Source: Alphaproteobacteria bacterium (GTDB taxonomy: Bacteria > Pseudomonadota > Alphaproteobacteria > Sphingomonadales > Emcibacteraceae). Taken from it: DNA of 64,000 nucleotides. The first letter of the stretch is position 1. Every line of letters begins with the position of its first letter. Below, piece by piece: positions 12,611 to 42,853 of the stretch. Position numbers and translations under genes: made by a program. Below the pieces are notes generated by a model. That model saw only the letters and a program-made list of their open reading frames with translations, made no database searches and had not been told where the DNA came from. The stretch spans positions 310,001 through 374,000 of the forward strand of contig JAUIDN010000002.1 of the NCBI GenBank assembly GCA_030428615.1, written 5' to 3'.

Positions 12611-13549
12611 TTAAGAATCATTATTAAGTTTTGTGCAAATATCGTCCAGTTGTTCAAGGGTTTTATAGTGAATCTTGAGGACCCCCGCCTCGCCGCCAGA
12701 AGACTCGAGTTCTATCTTTAAACCAACCGCTGCGGAAAGCTCATTTTCAAACGCTTCCATATCCGCATCTTTTTGTGATGCCTTACCGGGACCGCCCGTT
12801 TTGTTTTTATCTCCACCTTCTTTTTTTGACTTTGCGAGTTGCTCCGTCTGACGAACGCTTAAGCCATCGCGCACCACCATCTTTGCCAGAGCCTCCGGAT
12901 CCTCCGCCGTTATTAACGCACGCGCGTGCCCCATACTTAACTGGCCATCACGCATCAATTTTTGAACCCCGCCCGGCAACGACAGAAGCCGCAACATATT
13001 AGCAATATGGCTTCGGCTTTTTCCAACGGCTTTGGCGAGCGCATTTTGTGTGTGCGAAAATTCATCCATCAGTCTTTGAAATCCAAGCGCTTCCTCAATC
13101 GGGTTAAGGTCATGACGCTGAATATTTTCAATAATAGCTATTTCCAGCGCCTCTTCATCGGACATTTTCTTAATAACGACCGGCACATGATAAAGACCAG
13201 CGGCCTGTGCCGCGCGCCATCGGCGCTCACCAGCGACAATCTCATACTCATCGGGTCCTTTGGGGCGTACAAGTAACGGTTGGATAATACCTTTGGTTTT
13301 TACGGACTCAACGAGTTCATTGGCTTTATCATCATCAAAATAAATTCGCGGCTGGTAACTATTGGGCACCAGAAACTCTATCGGCAGTTCTCTGGCAGAT
13401 TTCGGACTTTCACCTTTTTCAGACACTGCCTTCACATCATCATAGGATGCTTCACGGGTATTCATAAGTGATGATAGCCCCCTACCCAAACCCATTTTCG
13501 GGGCGGCGGCTTTCCTTGGAGCTTTATTCTCTGTTTTATTTTGAGCCAT
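12611..13549 (-). CDS. parB: Chromosome partitioning protein ParB
   Basis: CTP-dependent DNA clamp that loads at parS and spreads. The 312-residue protein has a basic N-terminal tail leading to MGLGRGLSSLM (the ParA-interacting region), the CTP-binding segment with the arginine patch AGERRWRAA, the ENIQRHDLNPIEEA box, a helix-turn-helix (ALAKAVGKSRSHIANMLRLL) and a C-terminal dimerisation domain. It lies 37 bases downstream of parA. Two perfect target sites occur nearby, at 15004-15019 and 17061-17076. Confidence 0.97.
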   Translation of the reverse strand: MAQNKTENKAPRKAAAPKMGLGRGLSSLMNTREASYDDVKAVSEKGESPKSARELPIEFLVPNSYQPRIYFDDDKANELVESVKTKGIIQPLLVRPKGPDEYEIVAGERRWRAAQAAGLYHVPVVIKKMSDEEALEIAIIENIQRHDLNPIEEALGFQRLMDEFSHTQNALAKAVGKSRSHIANMLRLLSLPGGVQKLMRDGQLSMGHARALITAEDPEALAKMVVRDGLSVRQTEQLAKSKKEGGDKNKTGGPGKASQKDADMEAFENELSAAVGLKIELESSGGEAGVLKIHYKTLEQLDDICTKLNNDS

Positions 13550-13586: not shown

Positions 13587-14402
13587 TTAAGCAGCCTTTG
13601 GCCTTCTTCTTCTCTTAAGCAGCTCTGCCGCCAACTCCAGATAAGCCCTGCTGCCGGCGCAGGCCAAATCATAAAGTAGAACAGGTTTACCATGGGATGG
13701 TGCCTCCGATACCCTGACATTCCGCGGGATAACCGTTTTAAAAACCTTGTCACCTAAATAATTTCTTACATCCGTCGCGACCTGCTCGGATAAATTATTG
13801 CGGGCGTCAAACATTGTCAAAATAATCCCACCGATTTCCAGACTGGGATTAAAGTTTGCTTTTACGGTTTCAATCGTTTGCAGCAGAAGGCTTAACCCTT
13901 CAAGCGCAAAAAATTCGCATTGCAGGGGCACAAGTACTGAATGAGCCGCCGCCAGGGTATTTAATGTCAGAAGATTAAGTGACGGCGGACAATCGATCAA
14001 AACATAATCATAATTTTCGAGTACCGGGTCACGGAAAGCACGCCGCAACCTAAATGTACGCTGTTCCGCATCCACAAGTTCGAGTTCCGCTCCCGTAAGA
14101 TCAATGGTCGAGGGGACAAGATCCAGTTTTGGTACAATGGTCTTGACAATTGCCTCCTCCAAAGAAACCTCCCCCATGATTACTTCATAACTGCTGTGGG
14201 CGCGATCATTGCGTTCCCGGCCTAGTCCAGTGCTTGCGTTACCCTGTGGGTCCATATCGATGATCAAAACATTCTTTTTGGTCGCCGCAAGAGCGGTTGC
14301 AAGATTAATTGTGGTGGTGGTTTTCCCAACGCCGCCCTTCTGGTTGGCAACGGCAATAATTTCCGGCTGACGATTTGCCGCAGATGACTCTGTGGATAAC
14401 AT
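13587..14402 (-). CDS. parA: Chromosome partitioning ATPase ParA (Soj)
   Basis: Walker-type ATPase that moves ParB-parS complexes. The deviant Walker A KGGVGKTTT occurs at about residues 20-28, followed by DMDPQGNASTG and the Walker B-like IDCPPSLNLLT. Length (271) is normal. The start codon is notable: read on the minus strand, ATG is immediately preceded by and followed by TTATCCACA, so the second to fourth codons (Leu-Ser-Thr) are themselves a DnaA box. A GGAG element lies ten bases upstream of the ATG, supporting this start. Confidence 0.97.
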   Translation of the reverse strand: MLSTESSAANRQPEIIAVANQKGGVGKTTTTINLATALAATKKNVLIIDMDPQGNASTGLGRERNDRAHSSYEVIMGEVSLEEAIVKTIVPKLDLVPSTIDLTGAELELVDAEQRTFRLRRAFRDPVLENYDYVLIDCPPSLNLLTLNTLAAAHSVLVPLQCEFFALEGLSLLLQTIETVKANFNPSLEIGGIILTMFDARNNLSEQVATDVRNYLGDKVFKTVIPRNVRVSEAPSHGKPVLLYDLACAGSRAYLELAAELLKRRRRPKAA

Positions 14403-14411
14403 TGTGGATAA
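14391..14411 (-). promoter_or_regulatory. Two perfect DnaA boxes flanking the parA start codon
   Basis: TTATCCACA occurs at 14403-14411 and again at 14391-14399 on the minus strand, separated only by the ATG of parA. Both match the consensus DnaA box exactly and are in the same orientation, 12 bases apart. Binding here would cover the translation start and probably the early transcribed region. Regulation of parA by DnaA, or titration of DnaA, is inferred and not shown. Confidence 0.75.
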
Positions 14412-14439: not shown

Positions 14440-15063
14440 TTAGTAACCCTTTATTTCACTTAGAGAAAGGATCATACCTGATTCTTCGCTTTTACTTGTG
14501 TATTTTTTTACCTTAAAACCCCATTTTTTTGAAGCATCAAGAATTTCGGCATCTGCCTTTTCGCCCTTAAGAAAAAGACATCTCGTTTTCGGGCCAATAA
14601 ACCTGTGGCTAAAACCGAGTAATTTATCAAGGTCTGCGCATGCCCTTGAAGTAATCAGATCGACAGGAAATGGTGTCAAATTCTCGATCCTTTCATTATG
14701 TACAACCGCATCACAACCGGTATTTTGTATAACCTGCTTCATAAAGGAACATTTTTTGCCGACGCTTTCCACAAGATGCACCTTCCCGGCCCCAAGGACC
14801 GAAAGAACCAATCCCGGAAAACCGGCACCACTTCCAAAATCAAGTATCGAAAGATCGCTATCGCCGGGTTTTATATAGTCCATCAATTGCGCGCTATCAT
14901 AAAAATGCCGCCGCCACATATCTTCTAATGTACTGCTACTGACCAGATTTATTGATTTCTGCCATTTTTTCAGCATTTCTGAATAAATTTTTAGCTTCTC
15001 CAGTGTTTCACGTGAAACATCGGTACTTTTTTTGAATTCATCAGGCGTCATAATACTGGTCAT
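14440..15063 (-). CDS. rsmG: 16S rRNA (guanine-N7) methyltransferase RsmG
   Basis: SAM-dependent methyltransferase that modifies G527 of 16S rRNA in E. coli; formerly GidB. The SAM-binding loop is LDFGSGAGFPGLVLSV, at about residues 72-87. ITSRACADLDKLL and the GEKADAE region also fit the family. Length is 207 residues. The N-terminal peptide DVSRETLEK is encoded by DNA containing a perfect parS site. Its ATG overlaps the mnmG stop by one base. Confidence 0.95.
   Translation of the reverse strand: MTSIMTPDEFKKSTDVSRETLEKLKIYSEMLKKWQKSINLVSSSTLEDMWRRHFYDSAQLMDYIKPGDSDLSILDFGSGAGFPGLVLSVLGAGKVHLVESVGKKCSFMKQVIQNTGCDAVVHNERIENLTPFPVDLITSRACADLDKLLGFSHRFIGPKTRCLFLKGEKADAEILDASKKWGFKVKKYTSKSEESGMILSLSEIKGY
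15004..15019. promoter_or_regulatory. parS centromere site within rsmG
   Basis: TGTTTCACGTGAAACA is an exact match to the 16-bp palindromic parS bound by chromosomal ParB. It lies inside the rsmG coding sequence, where it encodes the Val-Ser-Arg-Glu-Thr stretch. Confidence 0.93.
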
Positions 15064-17060: not shown

Positions 17061-17076
17061 TGTTTCACGTGAAACA
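17061..17076. promoter_or_regulatory. Second parS centromere site, between mnmE and mnmG
   Basis: A second exact TGTTTCACGTGAAACA sits in the 150-bp mnmE-mnmG spacer, about 2.06 kb from the rsmG site. No further copy was found by eye in the window. Confidence 0.93.
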
Positions 17077-18654: not shown

Positions 18655-18663
18655 TTATCCACA
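18655..18663 (+). promoter_or_regulatory. Isolated perfect DnaA box upstream of ogt
   Basis: TTATCCACA lies in the 285-bp mnmE-ogt intergenic gap, 60 bases before the ogt start. The rest of this gap is AT-rich. It also contains a short frame reading MKAAVAFLFFAIYEVVFL from 18571, which I do not consider a supported gene. Confidence 0.55.
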
Positions 18664-23615: not shown

Positions 23616-24653
23616 CTATCTTCTGTAATTTAAAATAATATCTGAGACCAGTTTCACATTTTCCGGTGGAGTCTGTGGAATGATCCCATGTCCTAGATTA
23701 AATACGTGTGAGCCGTCTTTTAGATGTTCAAGAATGTGATAAACTGCTTTTTCAAGGGGCTTACCACCACTTACCAGCAACAAGGGGTCCAGGTTGCCCT
23801 GTACGGGGCAAAGGGGTTGAATCACATTTTTAACCCATGTGGTTGAAGTGGACGTATCAATGCTAACGGCACTTACGCCTGTCTTCTTGACAAAATTCTT
23901 TATTTTTGCCCCTGCCCCTTTTGGAAAACCGATGATCGGTACGTCGGGGTGGACGGCGCGGATATTTTCAACGATTTTTTTGACCGGCTCGACACACCAT
24001 TTTATAAATTCATCTGCCGGCAGTGTTCCCGACCAACTGTCAAAAATCTGTAGGGCTTCTGCACCATTATCGACCTGTCGAATAAGATATTCGGATGTTG
24101 ATATAACAAGAAGATTAATTATTTTAGTGAATGTTTCCCGGTCCTGATAAGCCATTAATCGGGTCTCAGCCTGATCCTTGGAACCACGACCATTGACCAT
24201 GTAAGTCGCAACGGTCCAGGGCGCTCCCGCAAATCCAATTAATGCGACATTTTCTGGAAGCGCTTTTGATAGATTAGATACTGTTTGGTACACCGGACTT
24301 AAGTGATCATGAAGCTTATCCATTGATAATTTCTGTAGCTTATCCAGATTATTAACCGGTGTTAATACAGGACCTTCTCCTGTTTTGAATGCCAAATCCT
24401 GTCCAAGCGCGTGCGGAATGACAAGAATATCCGAAAAAAGAATGGCAGCGTCCATCTTAAACCGTCTGATCGGTTGTAACGTAACTTCGGTTGCGAAATC
24501 TGGATTATAACAAAGGTCAAGAAATGACCCGGCCTCTTTTCTTAGGGCCATATATTCCGGAAGATAGCGTCCTGCCTGCCGCATGAACCAGAAAGGTACC
24601 CGCTCCGTTTTTTCGCCTTTTAAAGTTTGGATAAAAAGTTTTTTATTGCTCAT
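23616..24653 (-). CDS. hemE: Uroporphyrinogen decarboxylase
   Basis: Cofactor-free enzyme converting uroporphyrinogen III to coproporphyrinogen III. The N-terminal signature PFWFMRQAGRYLPEY and the second signature GFAGAPWTVATYMV are both present, and the C-terminus has VFNLGHGIIPQTPPENV. Length is 345 residues. It is the first gene left of the origin region and is transcribed away from it, exactly as in Caulobacter. Confidence 0.98.
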   Translation of the reverse strand: MSNKKLFIQTLKGEKTERVPFWFMRQAGRYLPEYMALRKEAGSFLDLCYNPDFATEVTLQPIRRFKMDAAILFSDILVIPHALGQDLAFKTGEGPVLTPVNNLDKLQKLSMDKLHDHLSPVYQTVSNLSKALPENVALIGFAGAPWTVATYMVNGRGSKDQAETRLMAYQDRETFTKIINLLVISTSEYLIRQVDNGAEALQIFDSWSGTLPADEFIKWCVEPVKKIVENIRAVHPDVPIIGFPKGAGAKIKNFVKKTGVSAVSIDTSTSTTWVKNVIQPLCPVQGNLDPLLLVSGGKPLEKAVYHILEHLKDGSHVFNLGHGIIPQTPPENVKLVSDIILNYRR

Positions 24654-25049
24654 AATTTTAGGTCTTAAAAGTTATACACCGAAAACATTACTTATATTAT
24701 ATTTATATATAAATATTGTAGTGGTTAGTTGGTCCTGTGAGTATCGTGGATTATTTGTTATGCACAGCTTATCCAAAATTTTATCAACACTTCTTTCGAT
24801 AACCGAGTATAGTTTGAGAAAAACGATAACTTACCAGAAATTAAGCATATACATATAATGAGACAGAAAAAAAGAACAGAATTATTATCAGATACTCTAA
24901 ATTATTAATTCTGTAGAATATTTTTTATACACAATAGAAAAACAAAAGTATTAAAATAGAATGACCTTAACAAATAACAAGCATTTAAGAAAAATAGCTA
25001 CTTATCCCCACTATTCAGGTTATTCGAATGAAGTGACGGAAAAAAGTAT
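24654..25049. other. Probable chromosomal replication origin (oriC)
   Basis: A 396-bp strongly AT-rich gap between divergent hemE and the PPSR gene, with no convincing ORF. DnaA-box matches on the plus strand are TTATGCACA (24758-24766) and TTATACACA (24925-24933), both exact to TTATNCACA. Near matches are TTATACACC (24672-24680), TTATCCAAA (24769-24777), TTATCAACA (24781-24789) and TTATCCCCA (25002-25010). An almost pure A/T stretch at about 24689-24718 could be the unwinding element. Gene orientation switches here from mostly minus to mostly plus. In Caulobacter the origin lies in this same hemE-PPSR interval. Confidence 0.88.
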
Positions 25050-25877
25050 ATGACGAAAGTACATCTTCACCTTGTTTCAGATTCGACCGGTGATACTCTG
25101 GAACAGGTTGCAAAGGCATCCCTTGTTCAGTTTCCCGGTATAGAGCCGATCAAACACTACTGGCCGATGATCAGAACAGCCCGCCATATGGAACGGCTTA
25201 TCGCCGAAATGGAAGAAAACCCAGGTATTGTTATGTTTACGTTGGTGGATCATGAAATTGAAAAGGTGCTGATTGATGCCTGTAAGAATCATAATTGGCC
25301 GTGTATACCGGTTCTTCACGGTATTATTCGCGAACTTGGTAGACATCTTGGTGAAACCCCAACCGAAAGACCAGGGTTACAGCATCAAATGGACGATAAG
25401 TATTTCGAACGTATTGATGCTATCCAATATACGCTTGCACATGACGACGGGCAGATTGCCGATAATCTTCAGGAAGCGGATATAATCCTGGTTGGTGTCT
25501 CACGGACCTCAAAAACGCCGACCTGTATTTATTTGGCAAACCGGGGGTATAAGGCGGCGAATATTCCTATTGTTCCTGGCTGCCCGCTCCCCGCAGAGCT
25601 TGAGCAGTGCAAGGATAAATTTATTGTCGGTCTTGTAAATAGCGTTGATCGGCTTGTGCAGATCCGCCGTAATAGGCTTCTGATGTTAAAGGAAAACAAG
25701 ACAACAGATTATGTTGATGAAGAACTCGTCAAAGAAGAGGTGAAGCAGGCAAGGAGACTTTTCAGTAAAATGGGGTGGCCGACGGTTGATGTAACCCGTC
25801 GTTCTATTGAAGAAACATCGGTAGCGATTATAAATCTGAAAAATAAATATGATGAAGAAAAGTCAGCGTCAGCGTAA
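25050..25877 (+). CDS. PEP synthase / PPDK regulatory kinase-pyrophosphorylase (PPSR, DUF299)
   Basis: Bifunctional enzyme that inactivates pyruvate phosphate dikinase or PEP synthase by ADP-dependent phosphorylation and reactivates it by phosphorolysis. The N-terminus HLVSDSTGDTLEQVAKA and the P-loop-like GVSRTSKTPTCIYLANRGYKAANIPIV are diagnostic of the family. The C-terminal GWPTVDVTRRSIEETSVAII also fits. Length is 275 residues. It is the first gene rightward of the origin. Confidence 0.95.
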   Translation: MTKVHLHLVSDSTGDTLEQVAKASLVQFPGIEPIKHYWPMIRTARHMERLIAEMEENPGIVMFTLVDHEIEKVLIDACKNHNWPCIPVLHGIIRELGRHLGETPTERPGLQHQMDDKYFERIDAIQYTLAHDDGQIADNLQEADIILVGVSRTSKTPTCIYLANRGYKAANIPIVPGCPLPAELEQCKDKFIVGLVNSVDRLVQIRRNRLLMLKENKTTDYVDEELVKEEVKQARRLFSKMGWPTVDVTRRSIEETSVAIINLKNKYDEEKSASA

Positions 25878-32710: not shown

Positions 32711-33993
32711 TCATCAAATGGCGGGAATATTTTTACCAGTGTTATCTGGTTTCTTTTTCGTTTCAAAATTTCAAGTTTAAAGCCGTTAATATCAAATATT
32801 TGGCCAGGTAATGGGATTATTTCTGCCTGATCAATGACATAACCAGCGATGGTTATGGCTTCATCGTCGTTCAAATTCCAATTAAACTGCCGGTTTAAAT
32901 CTCGTATTGGTGTTCCCCCATCTGCGATGACGGCGCCGGATTTTAAAAGGGTGACACCGTTATTATGCGTGTCATGTTCATCGGTGATATCACCGACAAT
33001 TTCTTCGAGGATATCTTCAAGCGTGATAACCCCCATTAATGCGCCATATTCGTCAACCACCAGTGCGAAGTGAGCCTTTTTCGCAAGAAACATTTTGAGC
33101 TGCTCACGCAAACTGGTGGTTTCCGGCACAAACCACGGTGGTATTGCGATTTCCCTTAAAATCTTGTGGTCAAGATCGCCGTAACTTTTCCGGGTCACTC
33201 TTAAAACATCCTTGGCATGAACAACACCGATGATGTTGTCCTGGTTTTCTTCCCACATCGGAAGGCGCGTATAGGGGCTGGCTACGATCTGCTGGAATAT
33301 ATCATCGATATTATCCTGCGCATTTATGGTTTCGACATTTTTGCGGTGGACCATGACATCTTCAAGGCTGATTTCATCAAGATCAAGTATACCGGCGAGC
33401 ATGTCTTTATGCTCTTTTACAATACCGCCTTCGTGCGCCTGCAGATCTATAGCGCCGCGAATTTCATCATGAGGGCTTAATACACGTTGATTGTCCGCCG
33501 CTTTAATACCAAGAAGCCTTAGTGTATGACGGGCAACAATTTGAATAAGCCTAACAACAGGCGAAAATAAAATCACACATATATTTATCAGCGGCGCTAC
33601 CTTCAACGCCATTCTTTCCGGGTTTGAAATGGCATATGTTTTGGGCATCACTTCTGCGAAAATTAATACAATTGCTGTCATCACAAATGTTGCATAAACA
33701 ACACCAATTTCGCCAAATAGGGATAAAAATATATAAGTTGCCAACGAAGACGCCAGAATATTAACCAGGTTATTGCCAAGCAGAATAGCACCAATCAGGC
33801 TTTCCGGGTCAGAGATTAATTTTTCAACCAGGCTGGCCCGCTTATCCCCTTCTTTGGACATTTTATGCATGTTTGATGCAGAAGTTGCCGTCAAACTTGT
33901 TTCCGAGCCGGAAAAAAAGCCCGAAAACACGATCAGAAAAATAATGACGACAATTGCCGCTACCAGTTCAGCTTCCATAAGCGTATAATTCAT
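32701..33993 (-). CDS. HlyC/CorC (CNNM) family transporter
   Basis: A 430-residue inner-membrane protein. The N-terminal CNNM/DUF21 domain has about four transmembrane helices with FSGFFSGSETSLTA and LLGNNLVNILASSLAT. A pair of CBS domains lies at about residues 210-335 (DVMVHRKNVETI; FALVVDEYGALMGVITLEDILEEIVGDI). The C-terminal CorC/HlyC domain ends the protein. Homologues export Mg2+ (or Na+/Co2+-linked divalent cations). It follows aroB with an ATGA overlap. Confidence 0.93.
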   Translation of the reverse strand: MNYTLMEAELVAAIVVIIFLIVFSGFFSGSETSLTATSASNMHKMSKEGDKRASLVEKLISDPESLIGAILLGNNLVNILASSLATYIFLSLFGEIGVVYATFVMTAIVLIFAEVMPKTYAISNPERMALKVAPLINICVILFSPVVRLIQIVARHTLRLLGIKAADNQRVLSPHDEIRGAIDLQAHEGGIVKEHKDMLAGILDLDEISLEDVMVHRKNVETINAQDNIDDIFQQIVASPYTRLPMWEENQDNIIGVVHAKDVLRVTRKSYGDLDHKILREIAIPPWFVPETTSLREQLKMFLAKKAHFALVVDEYGALMGVITLEDILEEIVGDITDEHDTHNNGVTLLKSGAVIADGGTPIRDLNRQFNWNLNDDEAITIAGYVIDQAEIIPLPGQIFDINGFKLEILKRKRNQITLVKIFPPFDDQD

Positions 33994-35087
33994 TCCTTAA
34001 GTGCGCCTTCGAGCACGGACCTTACATCATCCATGTTAACATTCTTTGAAAGAAAAGATTTTCCGATGCCGGAAGCAACAACAAAAGTTAACTTTCCGCC
34101 AGACATTTTTTTATCACCCTTCATGTGATTTAGCAGATTTTCGACATTAAAATTGAATGACGAGATTTGCTTTGCTGAAGTTTTTTGAAAATGTTTGACC
34201 ACGCGGTCAACGTCATCATGCGGGCATAGGCCGGTTTTTGCTGAAAGCTTAAAGGCGAGAATAATTCCCATGGCGACGGCTTCACCGTGAAAAAGAGTGT
34301 CGTTGTAACCATTTTCTGCTTCAAGAGCATGGCCAAAAGTATGTCCAAGGTTCAATAGGGCTCTCGCACCGGTTTCTCGTTCGTCATCTGCGACAACGGT
34401 GGCTTTTGCCGCGCAGCTTTTCCTGATGGCCTGTGATCTTAAATTTCTGTCACCCTCTATCAGGGCTTCGCCGTTTTGTTCAAGCCAAGCGAAAAAAGCG
34501 TCGTCATTTATCAGCCCATATTTTACAATCTCCGCATACCCGGCAATAATATGCCGTGGGTCCAGAGTTTCAAGGGTGGTAACATCAATCAATACAAGGC
34601 GCGGCTGATGAAAAGCCCCGATCAGGTTTTTACCGTGTCTGCTGTTAATGCCCGTTTTGCCGCCGACGGAACTGTCGACCTGAGCAAGCAACGTGGTCGG
34701 AATCTGTATAAAATCAATACCGCGCAAATAGATACTCGCGGCAAAACCGACCAGATCGCCGATCACGCCACCGCCAAAGGCGATGATCATGTCAGTGCGT
34801 TCAAGCCTTAAGGAAAGCAGTTTATCAAGCAGTTCTTCCAGCTGTTCAAAGGACTTGGTTGCCTCCCCGGCAGGGAGAATAATGGTGTCATACTCAAGGT
34901 TATTTTCACTGAAATTGTGTTCCAGTCGCGAAAGCTGATGCCGAGCAACATTTTCATCTGTGATGATCACAGTTTTTGCTCTTTTCAGTAAAGGAACAAT
35001 GTAATCGGCCGCATTATCAATGATATTCTCATCAATAAGAATATCATAGCTCCGGTTTCCAAGATCAACTGTCGTTTTCTGCATCAT
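33990..35087 (-). CDS. aroB: 3-dehydroquinate synthase
   Basis: NAD- and Zn-dependent cyclisation of DAHP in the shikimate pathway. Features are FGGGVIGDLVGFAASIYLRG (NAD loop), QIPTTLLAQVDSSVGGKTGIN, the Zn-ligand regions GYAEIVKYGLI and LLNLGHTFGHALE, and HGEAVAMGI. Length is 365 residues. It overlaps the 3' end of aroK by 23 bases, so both shikimate genes are translated from one message. Confidence 0.97.
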   Translation of the reverse strand: MMQKTTVDLGNRSYDILIDENIIDNAADYIVPLLKRAKTVIITDENVARHQLSRLEHNFSENNLEYDTIILPAGEATKSFEQLEELLDKLLSLRLERTDMIIAFGGGVIGDLVGFAASIYLRGIDFIQIPTTLLAQVDSSVGGKTGINSRHGKNLIGAFHQPRLVLIDVTTLETLDPRHIIAGYAEIVKYGLINDDAFFAWLEQNGEALIEGDRNLRSQAIRKSCAAKATVVADDERETGARALLNLGHTFGHALEAENGYNDTLFHGEAVAMGIILAFKLSAKTGLCPHDDVDRVVKHFQKTSAKQISSFNFNVENLLNHMKGDKKMSGGKLTFVVASGIGKSFLSKNVNMDDVRSVLEGALKE

Positions 35088-35742
35088 TTTCTTCGCCCGC
35101 GCTTTTGCTTTCTTTGGTCAGGCGCGCTTTTTTCCGCGCCATGCGCTTTTGGTACTTTTTCTTTTCAATAGCAAGATATTTGTTCAGTTTCCATATAATA
35201 TCATTCACAACCTTGTCGTGGGGACCCTGCCCGCTTTCGACTGTTATATGGGCTTCTTCATATATGGGGTATCTTTCTTCGGTCAGTTTTTGAAGAATCT
35301 TTTTTGGGTTTCCTTTTTTCAACAGTGGGCGAGTATCCCTTTTTGATGTCCGCTCAACAAGAAGATCGACATCAACCTTAAGCCAGATGACGATCGTCTG
35401 CCGTTTCAGCCGACCACGGGTTTTTGGATCCATAAAAGCGCCCCCACCGGTTCCAAGAACAATTTTGTTTTTATCGCTGATAAGCCTGTTGATAACCCGG
35501 CGTTCGCCTTTTCGGAAATCCTCTTCGCCGAATTTTTCAAATATTTCCGTTACTGTATGGCCGGCTGCAACCTCTATTTCATGGTCGCTATCAACAAAAT
35601 TTAAATGTAATCGGCGGGCCAGCCGAATGCCGATGGTCGATTTGCCACTGCCCATTAACCCAACAAGAGAAATGCTTTTTCTTAACGGGTATCTTAGGCG
35701 CGGCGAAAGGCTTTTTTTTCTTTTTCTTTTCAGATTATTCAT
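35065..35742 (-). CDS. aroK: Shikimate kinase with charged terminal extensions
   Basis: Phosphorylates shikimate with ATP. The P-loop GLMGSGKST is at residues 28-36, the shikimate site includes FVDSDHEIE and FRKGERRVI, and the GTGGGAF loop and DTRPLL lid are present. At 225 residues it is longer than the usual ~170-180. A basic 22-residue N-terminal tail and a Lys/Arg-rich then acidic C-terminal tail (from about 192) account for the excess. The C-terminal tail is partly encoded in overlap with aroB. Confidence 0.95.
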   Translation of the reverse strand: MNNLKRKRKKSLSPRLRYPLRKSISLVGLMGSGKSTIGIRLARRLHLNFVDSDHEIEVAAGHTVTEIFEKFGEEDFRKGERRVINRLISDKNKIVLGTGGGAFMDPKTRGRLKRQTIVIWLKVDVDLLVERTSKRDTRPLLKKGNPKKILQKLTEERYPIYEEAHITVESGQGPHDKVVNDIIWKLNKYLAIEKKKYQKRMARKKARLTKESKSAGEENDAENDS

Positions 35743-35888
35743 TATATCTTCTATTTACATATCTTTACGCTGTTTAGCCATGAAATAAACATATTTTTTC
35801 GCAAGCTTTACGTCGCTTGAAAACACCGTTAATATGACGCGTTATTCTATAAAGTTCTTTTTATAATATTACTGAGGTAAATATACCA

Positions 35889-36029
35889 ATGGCAAAATTA
35901 TGGCTAATCCTGATTATTTTAATCCTGCTCTCTGTTGTTGGTGCGGGAATCTACCTTATGACAGCAGATATCCCGGCGCCCTCCCAGCGTGTGGAAAAAA
36001 CGCTTCCTGATGATGCGTTCCCGAATTGA
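35889..36029 (+). CDS. 46-residue single-pass membrane protein of unknown function
   Basis: The ORF begins MAKLWLILIILILLSVVG and ends with DDAFPN. Residues 4-25 form one transmembrane helix. The tail MTADIPAPSQRVEKTLPDDA is proline-rich and probably periplasmic. A GAGG-like element lies shortly upstream. I recall similar small proteins (helix followed by IPAP...VEK.lP...F) in other alphaproteobacteria near xerD/aroK, but cannot verify that here. It sits between divergent aroK and the large exported protein, 17 bases before the latter's start. Confidence 0.65.
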   Translation: MAKLWLILIILILLSVVGAGIYLMTADIPAPSQRVEKTLPDDAFPN

Positions 36030-39130: not shown

Positions 39131-40084
39131 ATGCAAACATATTTAGATTTTGAAAAATCTATTGCCGAGCTTGAAAGCAGAATTCGCGATATGAAGAGCT
39201 TGGAAAGCGGTGATGAAATCAATATCGCTGAAGAAGTGGACCGGCTTGAGAATAAGCTCGATAAATTGTTACGGTCGACTTATGCCAAGCTGACATCGTG
39301 GGAAAAAATCAAGGTGGCTCGTCATCCGGACAGGCCTCATCTTTCTGACTATATAAGCAATTTATTCACAGACTTTATGGAGCTCTCCGGAGATCGTAAT
39401 TTTTCTGATGATCAGGCTATTATTGGTGGGATCGGAAGATTTAACGGCCAGTCTGTTATGGTGGTTGGCCATGAAAAAGGCAATGATACGGAAAGCCGTA
39501 TTAAGCATAATTTCGGTATGGCGAGGCCGGAAGGATTTCGCAAAGCGGTGAGGTTGTTTCATCTTGCGGACCAGTTTAAAATTCCTATTGTCACTTTCGT
39601 TGATACGGCAGGGGCCTACCCCGGTATTGGTGCAGAGGAACGCGGTCAGGCGGAAGCCATTGCGCGATCCACAGAAGCCTGCCTTGACGTAAAAGTACCC
39701 TTAATCAGTGTAATTGTTGGTGAGGGTGGATCCGGTGGTGCGGTGGCGCTTGCGGTAGGGAATAAAGTGTTGATGATGGAACACGCGGTTTATAGTGTTA
39801 TTTCCCCCGAAGGCTGTGCTTCTATTTTATGGCGCACCAGTGAAAAAGCTGAGGACGCGGCAAACGCTCTGAAAATAACGGCACAGGACCTTTTAAAACT
39901 TGAAGTGATTGATGAAGTGATACCGGAGCCGATCGGCGGTGCGCACCGCGATCACGAAAAAACGATGAAGTCCGTTCGAAAAGCGATCGATAATGCCCTT
40001 CTTGAATTTTCTGCTATCAGCTCGGATAAAATTATGGAGCTCAGACGGGAAAAATTCCTGAATATGGGTAATGTGGGTCTTTAA
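39131..40084 (+). CDS. accA: Acetyl-CoA carboxylase carboxyltransferase subunit alpha
   Basis: Alpha subunit of the carboxyltransferase that makes malonyl-CoA for fatty acid synthesis. The N-terminal coiled region (LDFEKSIAELESRI) is followed by the conserved RHPDRPHLSDYI, GDRNFSDDQAIIGG, TFVDTAGAYPGIGAEERGQ and VIGEGGSGGA-type oxyanion loop (VGEGGSGGAVAL). Length is 317 residues. It faces convergent secA across 33 bases containing an imperfect hairpin (40086-40105). Confidence 0.97.
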   Translation: MQTYLDFEKSIAELESRIRDMKSLESGDEINIAEEVDRLENKLDKLLRSTYAKLTSWEKIKVARHPDRPHLSDYISNLFTDFMELSGDRNFSDDQAIIGGIGRFNGQSVMVVGHEKGNDTESRIKHNFGMARPEGFRKAVRLFHLADQFKIPIVTFVDTAGAYPGIGAEERGQAEAIARSTEACLDVKVPLISVIVGEGGSGGAVALAVGNKVLMMEHAVYSVISPEGCASILWRTSEKAEDAANALKITAQDLLKLEVIDEVIPEPIGGAHRDHEKTMKSVRKAIDNALLEFSAISSDKIMELRREKFLNMGNVGL

Positions 40085-40117
40085 GCCGACTTAATTTAAG
40101 CTCGGAATATCTTTCAC

Positions 40118-42853
40118 CTAAATAGCACCGTGGCAATGCTTGTATTTTTTGCCGCTACCGCAAGGACACGGGTCGTTTCGACCTACTTTCGGCATAACCA
40201 GACCGTGGCAGTGTTTATATTTCTTGCCGCTTCCGCACGGACATTCGGCATTGCGGGGGGTGTTCTTCCACTCTGCGGGGTTTCCGGTGGCGGCCGGTCT
40301 TGGTCCGGATGTGCCGGGATGGCTCTCTCTCATTTGGCCGCGATCCGGTTCGTCAAGGTCGGGGAGCTCTTCTTCGCGTCTTATTTGCACATGCGCTAAT
40401 AGAAGCGCCACATTTTCACGTGTATTTGTAAGCATATTTTCAAACATTGAAAATGCTTCCGTTTTATATTCGTCAAGCGGGTTTCGCTGCCCATAGGATC
40501 TTAGTTGAATAACCTGACGAAGGTGATCAAGTTGCGCCAAATGTTCTTTCCAGTGACTGTCAATGGATTGGAGCAGAATTGTCCGCTCAAGTTGTCTCAT
40601 GACTTCGGGGCCGATTTCTGCACTTCGTTTTGCCATGAAATGGTCGGCGGCCTCAACGAGACGGTCTTCGAAAGTATCGCGGTCAATGCCTTCTTCCTGC
40701 GCCCACTCTTCTAGTCCGAAATCCTGTGTGAAGATGCGCTTCGCTTCAATAGAAAGGCCGTTTACATCCCAATCTTCCGGGTAGCTCCGTGCGGGGATAT
40801 GGCGGGCGACAAGGTCTTCTACCAGATGCTCCCGCATATCGGCGATTGTTTCTTCCAGATTATCTTCGGTCATGACTTCACGGCGCTGCTCGTAAATTGC
40901 TTTACGCTGATCGTTCATGACGTTGTCAAACTTAAGCAGGTTTTTACGGATATCGTAGTTTCGGGTTTCAACTTTTTCCTGCGATTTTTCGACGGCCCGG
41001 TTAAGCCATGGATGTGTAAGTGATTCACCCTCTTCGAAGCCAAGCTTTTGCATCCAGCTGTCCATTCGTTCGCCGCCGAATATTCGCATCAGGTCATCTT
41101 CCATGCTTAAGTAGAATTTCGAATAGCCCGGATCACCCTGTCGACCGGACCGTCCGCGAAGCTGATTATCAATGCGGCGACTTTCGTGGCGCTCTGTTCC
41201 CAGAACAAACAGCCCACCCAGTTCGATGACTTTTCTTTTCTCTTCTGCGACTTCTTCGATGATTTTTTCAATATGCTTTTGGCGCGCGGCTTCATCTTCT
41301 TCAGTAATTTCACGTTCGATGCGCATGTCAATATTCCCGCCGAGCTGAATATCAGTTCCGCGGCCGGCCATGTTGGTTGCGATGGTAACGGCGCCTTCCC
41401 GCCCGGCCTGACTGACGATATAGGCTTCTTCCTCGTGAAATTTTGCGTTCAGCACATTATGGGGGATTTTGCGTTTTTTAAGCAAAGCAGCAAGATATTC
41501 TGATTTCTCAATACTGACGGTACCGACAAGGATCGGCTGTCGGGTTTTATAACATTCTTCGATTCTGTCGACGATTGCGGCAAATTTTTCTTCTGCAGTT
41601 CGGTATATTTCGTCATGGTCATCAATACGGGCAACATCAATATTGGTGGGAATTTCAATCACTTCCAGGCCGTAAATGTCCGCAAATTCCGAGGCTTCTG
41701 TTGCCGCCGTACCGGTCATTCCGGCCAACTTTTCATAAAGCCGGAAATAATTCTGAAACGTTACGGACGCAAGCGTCTGATTTTCGGAACGGATGTCTAC
41801 GCCTTCCTTCGCTTCAATTGCCTGATGAAGACCATCAGAAAGTCGTCTTCCATCCATCATCCGACCGGTAAATTCGTCGATCAGGATGATGTCACCACCT
41901 TTGACGATATAATCTTTTTCTGCCTGAAAAAGCTTATGTGCTCTTAAAGCCTGATTGACATGATGAACGACAGCTACATTTCCATAATCATATAAATTAT
42001 CTGTTTCTATCAGACCGGCTTTCTTTAACACCTGCTCCAGATGCTCCATGCCGTCTTCGGTCAGTGAAATGCTTCTTGTTTTTTCATCCACGTCATAATC
42101 TTCGGGGACAAGTTCCGGAATGATTTTATTGATGGAGACATAAAGCTCCGATTTGTCTTCGGTTGGGCCAGATATGATAAGCGGTGTTCTCGCCTCATCA
42201 ATTAAAATGCTGTCCACCTCATCGACGATGGCAAAAACGGGGTCTCTTTGGGCCATCGCATCGGGGTGAAATTTCATGTTATCGCGAAGATAATCAAAAC
42301 CAAGTTCATTGTTTGTGGCGTATGTAACATCACAGGCATAGGCCTGTTTTCTGTTTTCATCGGGCAAATTCGGGATGACGCATCCCACGGTCATGCCAAG
42401 AAACCGATATATCTGTCCCATCCATTCTGAATCTCGGGTGGCCAGATAATCATTGACGGTAACAATATGAACCCCTCTTCCCGGCAAGGCGTTCAGATAA
42501 CCTGCAAGGGTGGAAACAAGCGTCTTACCTTCACCTGTTTTCATTTCAGAAATTTTACCTTCGTGAAGAACAATACCACCGATCAGCTGAACATCATAAT
42601 GACGCTGCCCAAGGGTTCTGACGGCGGCTTCACGGACAACGGCAAAGGCTTCAACCAAAAGATTGTCGAGTGCTTCACCGTTTTTCAGCCGTTCCCTGAA
42701 TTCTACGGTCTTGTTTGCTAATTCTTCATCGGATAACGCCTGAATTTCGGGCTCTAATGCGTTTATGGCTTTTATGCGCGGTTCCAGATTTTTTAGATAA
42801 CGGTCATTCGCTGTACCAAAGAGCTTTCTGGCAAGTTTACCCATTCCCAGCAT
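40118..42853 (-). CDS. secA: Preprotein translocase ATPase SecA with tandem SEC-C zinc motifs
   Basis: Motor ATPase driving secretion through SecYEG. Walker A is [10 protein letters not shown] (about 103-112), the DEAD-type motif is [18 protein letters not shown], and motif VI is [13 protein letters not shown]. The C-terminal linker ends in two consecutive zinc-binding SEC-C modules, each containing [14 protein letters not shown], about 25 residues apart. Most SecA proteins have one. These contact SecB and lipids in E. coli. Length is 911 residues. An AGGA element eight bases before ATG 42853 supports this start. Confidence 0.98.
40126..40252. repeat. Tandem duplication encoding the two SecA SEC-C modules
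   Basis: Segments 40126-40177 and 40201-40252 align without gaps, 41 of 52 bases identical by my count, with a 75-base period. Both encode [14 protein letters not shown] on the minus strand. Most differences are silent, which indicates an old in-frame duplication kept by selection. Confidence 0.85.

Follow-up and report, generated by a model that had tools for sequence, protein, structure and literature searches.

Where does replication of the chromosome begin in an Emcibacteraceae-like alphaproteobacterium, and how would its DnaA open the DNA there? We addressed this question in a gap between hemE and PPSR, which we take to be the COG1806 kinase-phosphorylase. The window, that is, the whole stretch of 64,000 nucleotides that was analysed, covers bases 310001-374000 of a 377-kb contig (C32); the draft genome amounts to 3.39 Mb in 41 contigs. 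Its PPSR has its nearest named relative, at 94% identity, in a MAG labelled Emcibacteraceae, and 13 other PPSR matches are labelled Emcibacteraceae, Emcibacter, Kordiimonadaceae, Kordiimonas or just Alphaproteobacteria. The dnaA gene is located about 82 kb from the gap. The gap and its flanks are as follows:

23616-24653, minus strand: hemE, uroporphyrinogen decarboxylase, left flank of the gap
24654-25049 (396 bp, 26% GC), strand not applicable: chromosomal oriC in the hemE-PPSR gap, marked by the skew minimum, DnaA boxes and a conserved setting
25050-25877, plus strand: PPSR kinase-phosphorylase, right flank of the gap

Location of the origin

Within the window, cumulative GC skew reaches its minimum at 25016-25017, tied with several places up to 25205, a span that takes in the right-hand edge of the gap and the first part of PPSR. 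For this 41-contig draft the skew was read from the window, from samples of the contig and from two relatives assembled as one contig each. Sixteen stretches of the contig to the left of the window (142 kb in total) gave a negative skew in 14, a positive one in 1 (0.066) and a value of 0.001 in 1, and the 3.5 kb to the right of the window gave -0.001. In G020, a member of the same genus with a single 3.37-Mb contig, 20 samples of 8 kb were positive in 9/10 between 0 and 1.53 Mb and negative in 9/10 between 1.70 and 3.23 Mb, with the exceptions at 0.17 and 2.89 Mb; the local minimum of an 80-kb stretch, at 3288717, lies 141 bp from the start of the orthologous gap (3288858). In G003, another one-contig genome of the family, the gap straddles the record ends, and the skew is positive in 6/6 samples from 0.15 to 1.5 Mb and negative in 6/6 from 1.65 to 3.0 Mb.

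The setting is conserved. The family set comprises 28 gaps from 32 genomes; G009 and G019 (PPSR unmatched), G007 (partial PPSR) and G010 (cut gap) were left out, and G031 (gap cut by a contig end) and G013 (some N) were kept. hemE is divergent from PPSR in 27 of these 28 gaps, the other being the cut gap of G031. For the rest of the class we used a non-random set of 89 loci, made of the 29 best-scoring PPSR matches (the window itself, a thirtieth, set aside) and 60 hand-picked regions, mostly one per family; 78 of these have a gap of this kind with hemE and PPSR on its two sides (29/29 and 49/60), and the 11 further regions in which hemE was unrecognised within the fetched ~1 kb or less were left out. 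The class set used below is made up of 106 gaps from 63 families (28 from the window's own family and 78 others).

An earlier note, made from the letters of this DNA, had read the gap as the chromosomal origin in a Caulobacter-like hemE/PPSR setting with a switch of gene orientation, and had proposed the cumulative skew as a check. Our results bear this out: hemE lies on the minus and PPSR on the plus strand, the skew minimum falls at the right end of the gap with none elsewhere in the window, the contig samples or the two one-contig relatives, DnaA boxes are in excess (see below), and hemE and COG1806 also flank Cori of Caulobacter, as well as the origin of Rickettsia (PMC1914354). The gap has the features by which we recognise an origin of the hemE-COG1806 type, namely divergent flanks, a skew switch, a box cluster above chance and an AT-rich tract, and we have very little doubt that it is the chromosomal replication origin.

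Partition genes and further DnaA boxes in the window

Origin-linked partition genes and sites lie 8-12 kb from the gap:

12611-13549, minus strand: parB, origin-linked partition gene
13587-14402, minus strand: parA, origin-linked partition gene
15004-15019 and 17061-17076, strand not applicable: exact parS palindromes TGTTTCACGTGAAACA, 16 bp

The palindromes at 15004 and 17061 are identified by what we take to be the parS consensus; with genes named by eye, one is inside rsmG and the other in the mnmG-mnmE interval. The start of parA is overlapped by a pair of exact TTATCCACA boxes at 14391-14411, spaced 12 bp apart. One exact box is found just inside the parA start in G004, and none in the 210 bp read in G020. 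To judge from these boxes, DnaA control of parA is possible. A lone exact TTATCCACA box is located at 18655-18663, between mnmE and a methylated-DNA--cysteine methyltransferase-like gene (also named by eye). To the right of the origin the local GC skew reverses at 33000-36000 and 40000-42000, perhaps as a result of inversions or inserted segments.

DnaA boxes on the two strands

The gap has two exact and four one-mismatch TTATNCACA boxes, all six on the plus strand, against 0.72 expected with at most one mismatch; six were reached in 0/300 dinucleotide shuffles. The 28 family gaps together hold 177 boxes with at most one mismatch, where 20.1 are expected, and 33 exact boxes, where 0.68 are expected. 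The plus-strand boxes and the tract beside them are:

24672-24680, plus strand: left DnaA box TTATACACC, one mismatch, pointing into the A/T tract
24692-24717, strand not applicable: A/T-only tract, read from the sequence and AT-rich in the alignments
24758-24766, plus strand: exact DnaA box TTATGCACA, box-like at the aligned position in the genus
24769-24777, plus strand: one-mismatch DnaA box TTATCCAAA
24781-24789, plus strand: one-mismatch DnaA box TTATCAACA, box-like at the aligned position in the genus
24925-24933, plus strand: exact DnaA box TTATACACA, aligned with box-like family sequences
25002-25010, plus strand: one-mismatch DnaA box TTATCCCCA, TTATCC invariant in the genus and family alignments

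The last of these boxes is followed on its 3' side by TATTCA (25012-25017). The A/T-only tract is probably the DNA unwinding element.

The box counts of the earlier note (two exact and at least four with one mismatch, in the same orientation) and its A/T tract are present as it described them. Its statement that all boxes read on the plus strand stands for the six boxes with at most one mismatch; it overlooked a conserved degenerate pair on the minus strand (24736-24753), because a strict consensus was used. This pair belongs to an element that we found across the class:

24736-24744, minus strand: degenerate DnaA box ATACTCACA, 3 mismatches to TTATCCACA, adjoining the A/T tract
24745-24753, minus strand: second degenerate DnaA box TAATCCACG, 2 mismatches to TTATCCACA
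24696-24755, plus strand: class-wide origin element (A/T tract, TNG tract and minus-strand pair), 60-bp profile

The minus-strand pair falls within a stretch that is strongly conserved in both the genus and the family alignments, and faces the A/T tract at 24692-24717. CCTGTG and GGATTA are each conserved in 23 of 27 family gaps, and GGATTA in 13/13 genus gaps. With two and three mismatches, the pair is within what we took as a box pair of the type found in the B. subtilis basal unwinding system (BUS), that is, one box with at most two and the other with at most four mismatches, facing an A/T tract. In 70 loci of other families the position equivalent to 24736-24744 holds an exact TTATCCACA in 9, and in 29 neither box of the pair is within two mismatches of TTATCCACA; in the good cases (L142, L143) the place of the pair is taken by CCTGTGGATAACGGGGATGA, preceded by a G/T-rich tract and an AT-rich run.

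When each family was left out in turn, the 60-bp profile scored above all 50 shuffles in 97 of the 106 gaps. The test failed in the other nine, one of which is the gap of G031, cut by a contig end. A version built without the window's own family gives 39.2 at 24696-24755, compared with at most 13.1 elsewhere in the 64 kb and at most 17.7 at non-origin places of the stretches sampled from G020, G003 and C32.

The left plus-strand box, on the far side of the A/T tract, is kept as GTTATNCAC in 12/12 readable genus gaps and in 10/15 other family gaps (22/27). Across the class, a plus-strand TTATNC is found left of the element in 41/83 gaps (10.5 expected) and the opposite orientation in 3; beyond the own family the left box is present in 16/56 gaps (5.2 expected). 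On these last counts, a mirror-image opening system on both strands is only partly supported as a class-wide rule.

A strand-specific run of TNG triplets

Within the class-wide element we identified a short run of triplets:

24716-24724, plus strand: TTG-TAG-TGG, three 5'-TNG-3' triplets, proposed DnaA-trio variant, the sole run of three in the gap with both strands checked

Unanchored runs of at least three TNG triplets are found on the plus strand of 59/106 gaps and on the minus strand of 1/106, with 7.5 expected per strand, and are absent from the plus strand of the remaining 47. Weighted by family, this corresponds to 30.7/63 against 5.0 expected. Runs of at least five are present in 19 gaps on the plus strand and in none on the minus strand (0.0 expected). 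The plus-strand runs of at least three are divided between 25/28 gaps of the own family and 34/78 of the others. For runs of at least four triplets, a minus-strand box lies within 35 nt on the 3' side in 22/26, where 6.6 are expected. The profile that anchors some of these counts was trained on the same loci, which the unanchored run test answers for the periodicity alone.

The two outer positions of the triplets are kept and the middle one varies. With positions numbered back from CCTGTG, 25-27 of the 27 family gaps share the outer G/T columns between -16 and -9, and 22 share the T at -18. Conservation drops to 15-19 gaps for the middle columns (-17, -14, -11, -8), and to 15 for the G at -7, because the window's genus breaks register after the third triplet. 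The run of the window has three triplets only, 9 nt from CCTGTG, and its neighbouring box has 3 mismatches. In runs of at least four, the family-weighted middle base is T in 4.6, A in 4.5, G in 3.3 and C in 0. This exclusion of C is not specific to the middle base, because the whole tract is nearly C-free on the TNG strand, whatever the phase.

Published DnaA-trios require a middle A (PMC10721633), and the published detector looks for at least three triplets with a middle A (PMC8287927). As a trio detector this rule is uninformative in these AT-rich gaps: middle-A runs near the box are at chance (36/97 against 40.2 expected), and they are at chance over complete gaps as well, whichever strand is read. 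At the minus-strand pair, no stretch of at least three consecutive middle-A triplets lies within 16 nt of a box; the boxes at gap positions 19 and 141 do have one, with such runs at chance level. A survey of 2021 found 15% of origins without trios and suspected deviant trios lacking the middle adenine (PMC8287927). The class-wide TNG tract may be such a looser form of the DnaA-trio signal. We found neither a TNG trio variant nor work on alphaproteobacterial DnaA-trios in the literature searched, which mostly stopped short of subscription papers.

The initiator protein

In B. subtilis DnaA, Asn187 reads the middle A of the trio through the amino group of the base, with cytosine able to substitute and guanine and thymine working less well, and Arg202 contacts the first base (PMC10721633). 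We compared these positions in 13 alphaproteobacterial DnaAs, of which three come from the window's own family and five from entries classed as plasmids; dnaA was present in 6/20 record starts, and 8 of the 52 plasmid-collection records with a DnaA match were read. In an alignment with chain 8btg_A, the DnaA of the window's genome has Tyr212 opposite Asn187, and so lacks the asparagine of the BUS type. The residue at this position is aromatic in all 13 proteins (Tyr in 7, Phe in 3, Trp in 3). Elsewhere it is Gln in E. coli and A. aeolicus, and Asn in Priestia, Paenibacillus and T. maritima. The position of Arg202 is Lys in 13/13, as in E. coli. Because none of these residues is universally conserved (PMC10721633), Asn187 is a weak criterion for a BUS-type system.

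Alphaproteobacteria might open their origins by a relaxed trio code, in which a DnaA with an aromatic residue would read the outer T and G of 5'-TNG-3' and not the middle A, initiator and origin having changed the rule together. We put this forward tentatively and with less than even confidence: that relaxed triplets and an aromatic residue occur together in one class, set against a few outgroups, amounts to a correlation and not to a demonstration.

CtrA and other regulators

Exact TTAA-N7-TTAA sites are absent from the gap, which has one loose match (24974) where 1.37 are expected. The 28 family gaps hold 22 loose CtrA-like sites against 38 expected, and are therefore below chance, and 29 class loci hold 10 against 5.6 expected. 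The scan is capable of detecting such sites, as it gave exact ones in five other class loci (L138-L140, from one family; L144; L148). We also found no match to the IHF consensus WATCAN5WTR in the gap, and no GANTC above chance.

The window's genome has ctrA (414 bits in the NCBIfam CtrA equivalog model, with a cut-off of 350), chpT, sciP and gcrA. Six members of its genus (G021, G023, G024, G025, G030 and G031) lack matches to ctrA, sciP and flhA together; their completeness is at least 92%, except for G030 (53%). The same blocks of the origin gap persist in all six, with more divergence in G024 and G030 and with the gap cut short in G031. We counted 12 loose CtrA-like matches in these six gaps and 3 in the gaps of six genus members that have ctrA, G026 being in neither set.

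In G021 some 29 kb have been cleanly deleted between chpT and a flagellin-like gene beside mnmA (L193, G021:C32:1-8000, compared with L190/L194), and the lost genes include chemotaxis genes, named by eye. An assembly gap was rejected for G021, as chpT, the flagellin-like ORF and mnmA are on one contig and the intervening 29 kb of G000 are missing. This check of the junction covered G021; in G031 the contig breaks off within the following gene. The joint absence of ctrA, sciP and flhA is an imperfect pattern, because there are two exceptions. G026 has sciP and flhA but no ctrA match, probably owing to an assembly gap, and G020 keeps ctrA and flhA with no sciP match. In this region of G020 (G020:C1:340818-349827) the flhA match starts from model position 76, a possible intermediate of flagellar loss. 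This distribution suggests that ctrA goes with the flagellum in the genus, and not with the origin.

The earlier note had reported no clear CtrA sites and took this to mean that initiation may be controlled differently from Caulobacter. The absence is real, and its unusual character is not upheld: most alphaproteobacterial origins are without CtrA sites, and outside Caulobacter such absence is usual (PMC4468827); the origin also persists in sister genomes from which ctrA is missing. The CtrA half of the finding is right but ordinary, because two alphaproteobacteria without a ctrA orthologue (PMC2877005), motility as the primordial role of CtrA (PMC8116508) and the absence of sites are already in print; to the contrary, counts of CtrA motifs have been reported for Wolbachia and its relatives (PMC1914354).

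Proposed mechanism and alternatives

From these observations we infer a mechanism in which DnaA would load on the plus-strand boxes at 24758, 24769, 24781, 24925 and 25002 and on the weak minus-strand pair at 24736-24753. From this pair a DnaA filament would extend leftwards onto the plus strand, toward the A/T tract, and hold the 5'-TNG-3' triplets at 24716-24724 as a relaxed DnaA-trio, so that 24692-24717 opens; the aromatic residue may explain the relaxed middle base. CtrA would play no part at the gap. Taken as a whole (oriC of an Emcibacteraceae-like alphaproteobacterium, filament from the minus-strand pair, grip on TNG, opening of the tract, no CtrA), we consider this model fairly likely.

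The gap could in principle be a mere DnaA-regulated divergent promoter, with the origin elsewhere, for example at the start of parA, where the two exact boxes at 14391 and 14403 lie 12 bp apart. The skew, still falling past 14 kb and turning only at 24-25 kb, rules out an origin at these tandem boxes; the parA start of G020 is without an exact box in what was read, and the class element stays at or below 13.1 in the window outside the gap, so that we give this reading practically no weight. An origin of the Caulobacter type, with CtrA acting as repressor at degenerate sites, would agree with the setting shared with Cori (PMC1914354), with the presence of ctrA, chpT, sciP and gcrA in the genome and with the loose match at 24974. 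It is very improbable given that such sites are below chance in the family gaps, are fewer in the six genus members with ctrA than in the six without it, and were detected by the same scan in other class loci.

The filament might instead start at the left plus-strand box (24672) and run rightwards, the real trios being TTACTTATATTA on the other strand, or opening might proceed from both sides, one per strand. The box there, unlike the minus-strand pair, lies within 16 nt of at least three middle-A triplets, as the published rule asks, and TTATNC left of the element (41/83) exceeds the expected number. Against it, middle-A runs are at chance both over whole gaps and near the minus-strand box, and the left box is present in just 16/56 gaps beyond the own family, which makes this course unlikely. 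We also find it rather unlikely, with somewhat more weight, that conservation of the TNG tract has a different cause, the tract being a strand-biased C-free melting element or a site for helicase loading or another protein, its triplets unread by DnaA. The near absence of C on one strand in any phase and the lack of alphaproteobacterial DnaA-trio work in the literature searched speak for it, but the three-base periodicity is strand-specific and survives dinucleotide shuffling, the outer T and G columns are kept while those between vary, and the position and direction match the B. subtilis trio (PMC8287927, PMC10316083). We retain the filament from the minus-strand pair as the preferred reading.

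Comparison with known systems

The gap resembles Cori of Caulobacter crescentus in its flanking genes, AT-rich region and weak DnaA boxes (PMC1914354, PMC4468827). In contrast to Cori, with five CtrA sites and one IHF site, its CtrA sites are at or below chance and the IHF consensus is unmatched. It is also similar to the BUS of B. subtilis, as boxes, a short spacer and a triplet run are found in the same relative orientation beside an A/T tract (PMC8287927), whereas here the outer T and G are kept, the middle base varies, and an aromatic residue instead of Asn is opposite Asn187. A further comparable system is the Thermotoga maritima eTrio, a TAG-type run of three TAG repeats needed for single-strand binding and unwinding (PMC10316083); the repeats are strictly TAG there and TDG (D = A, G or T) here, and in the alignment the T. 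maritima protein carries Asn where the alphaproteobacterial DnaAs have the aromatic residue.

Sister genomes that are without ctrA and keep the same origin constitute a natural experiment, which fits motility as the older role of CtrA (PMC8116508). The TNG tract, common to many alphaproteobacterial families, provides a concrete, strand-specific candidate for the deviant trios, and together with the aromatic residue of DnaA it makes the question of such trios directly testable.
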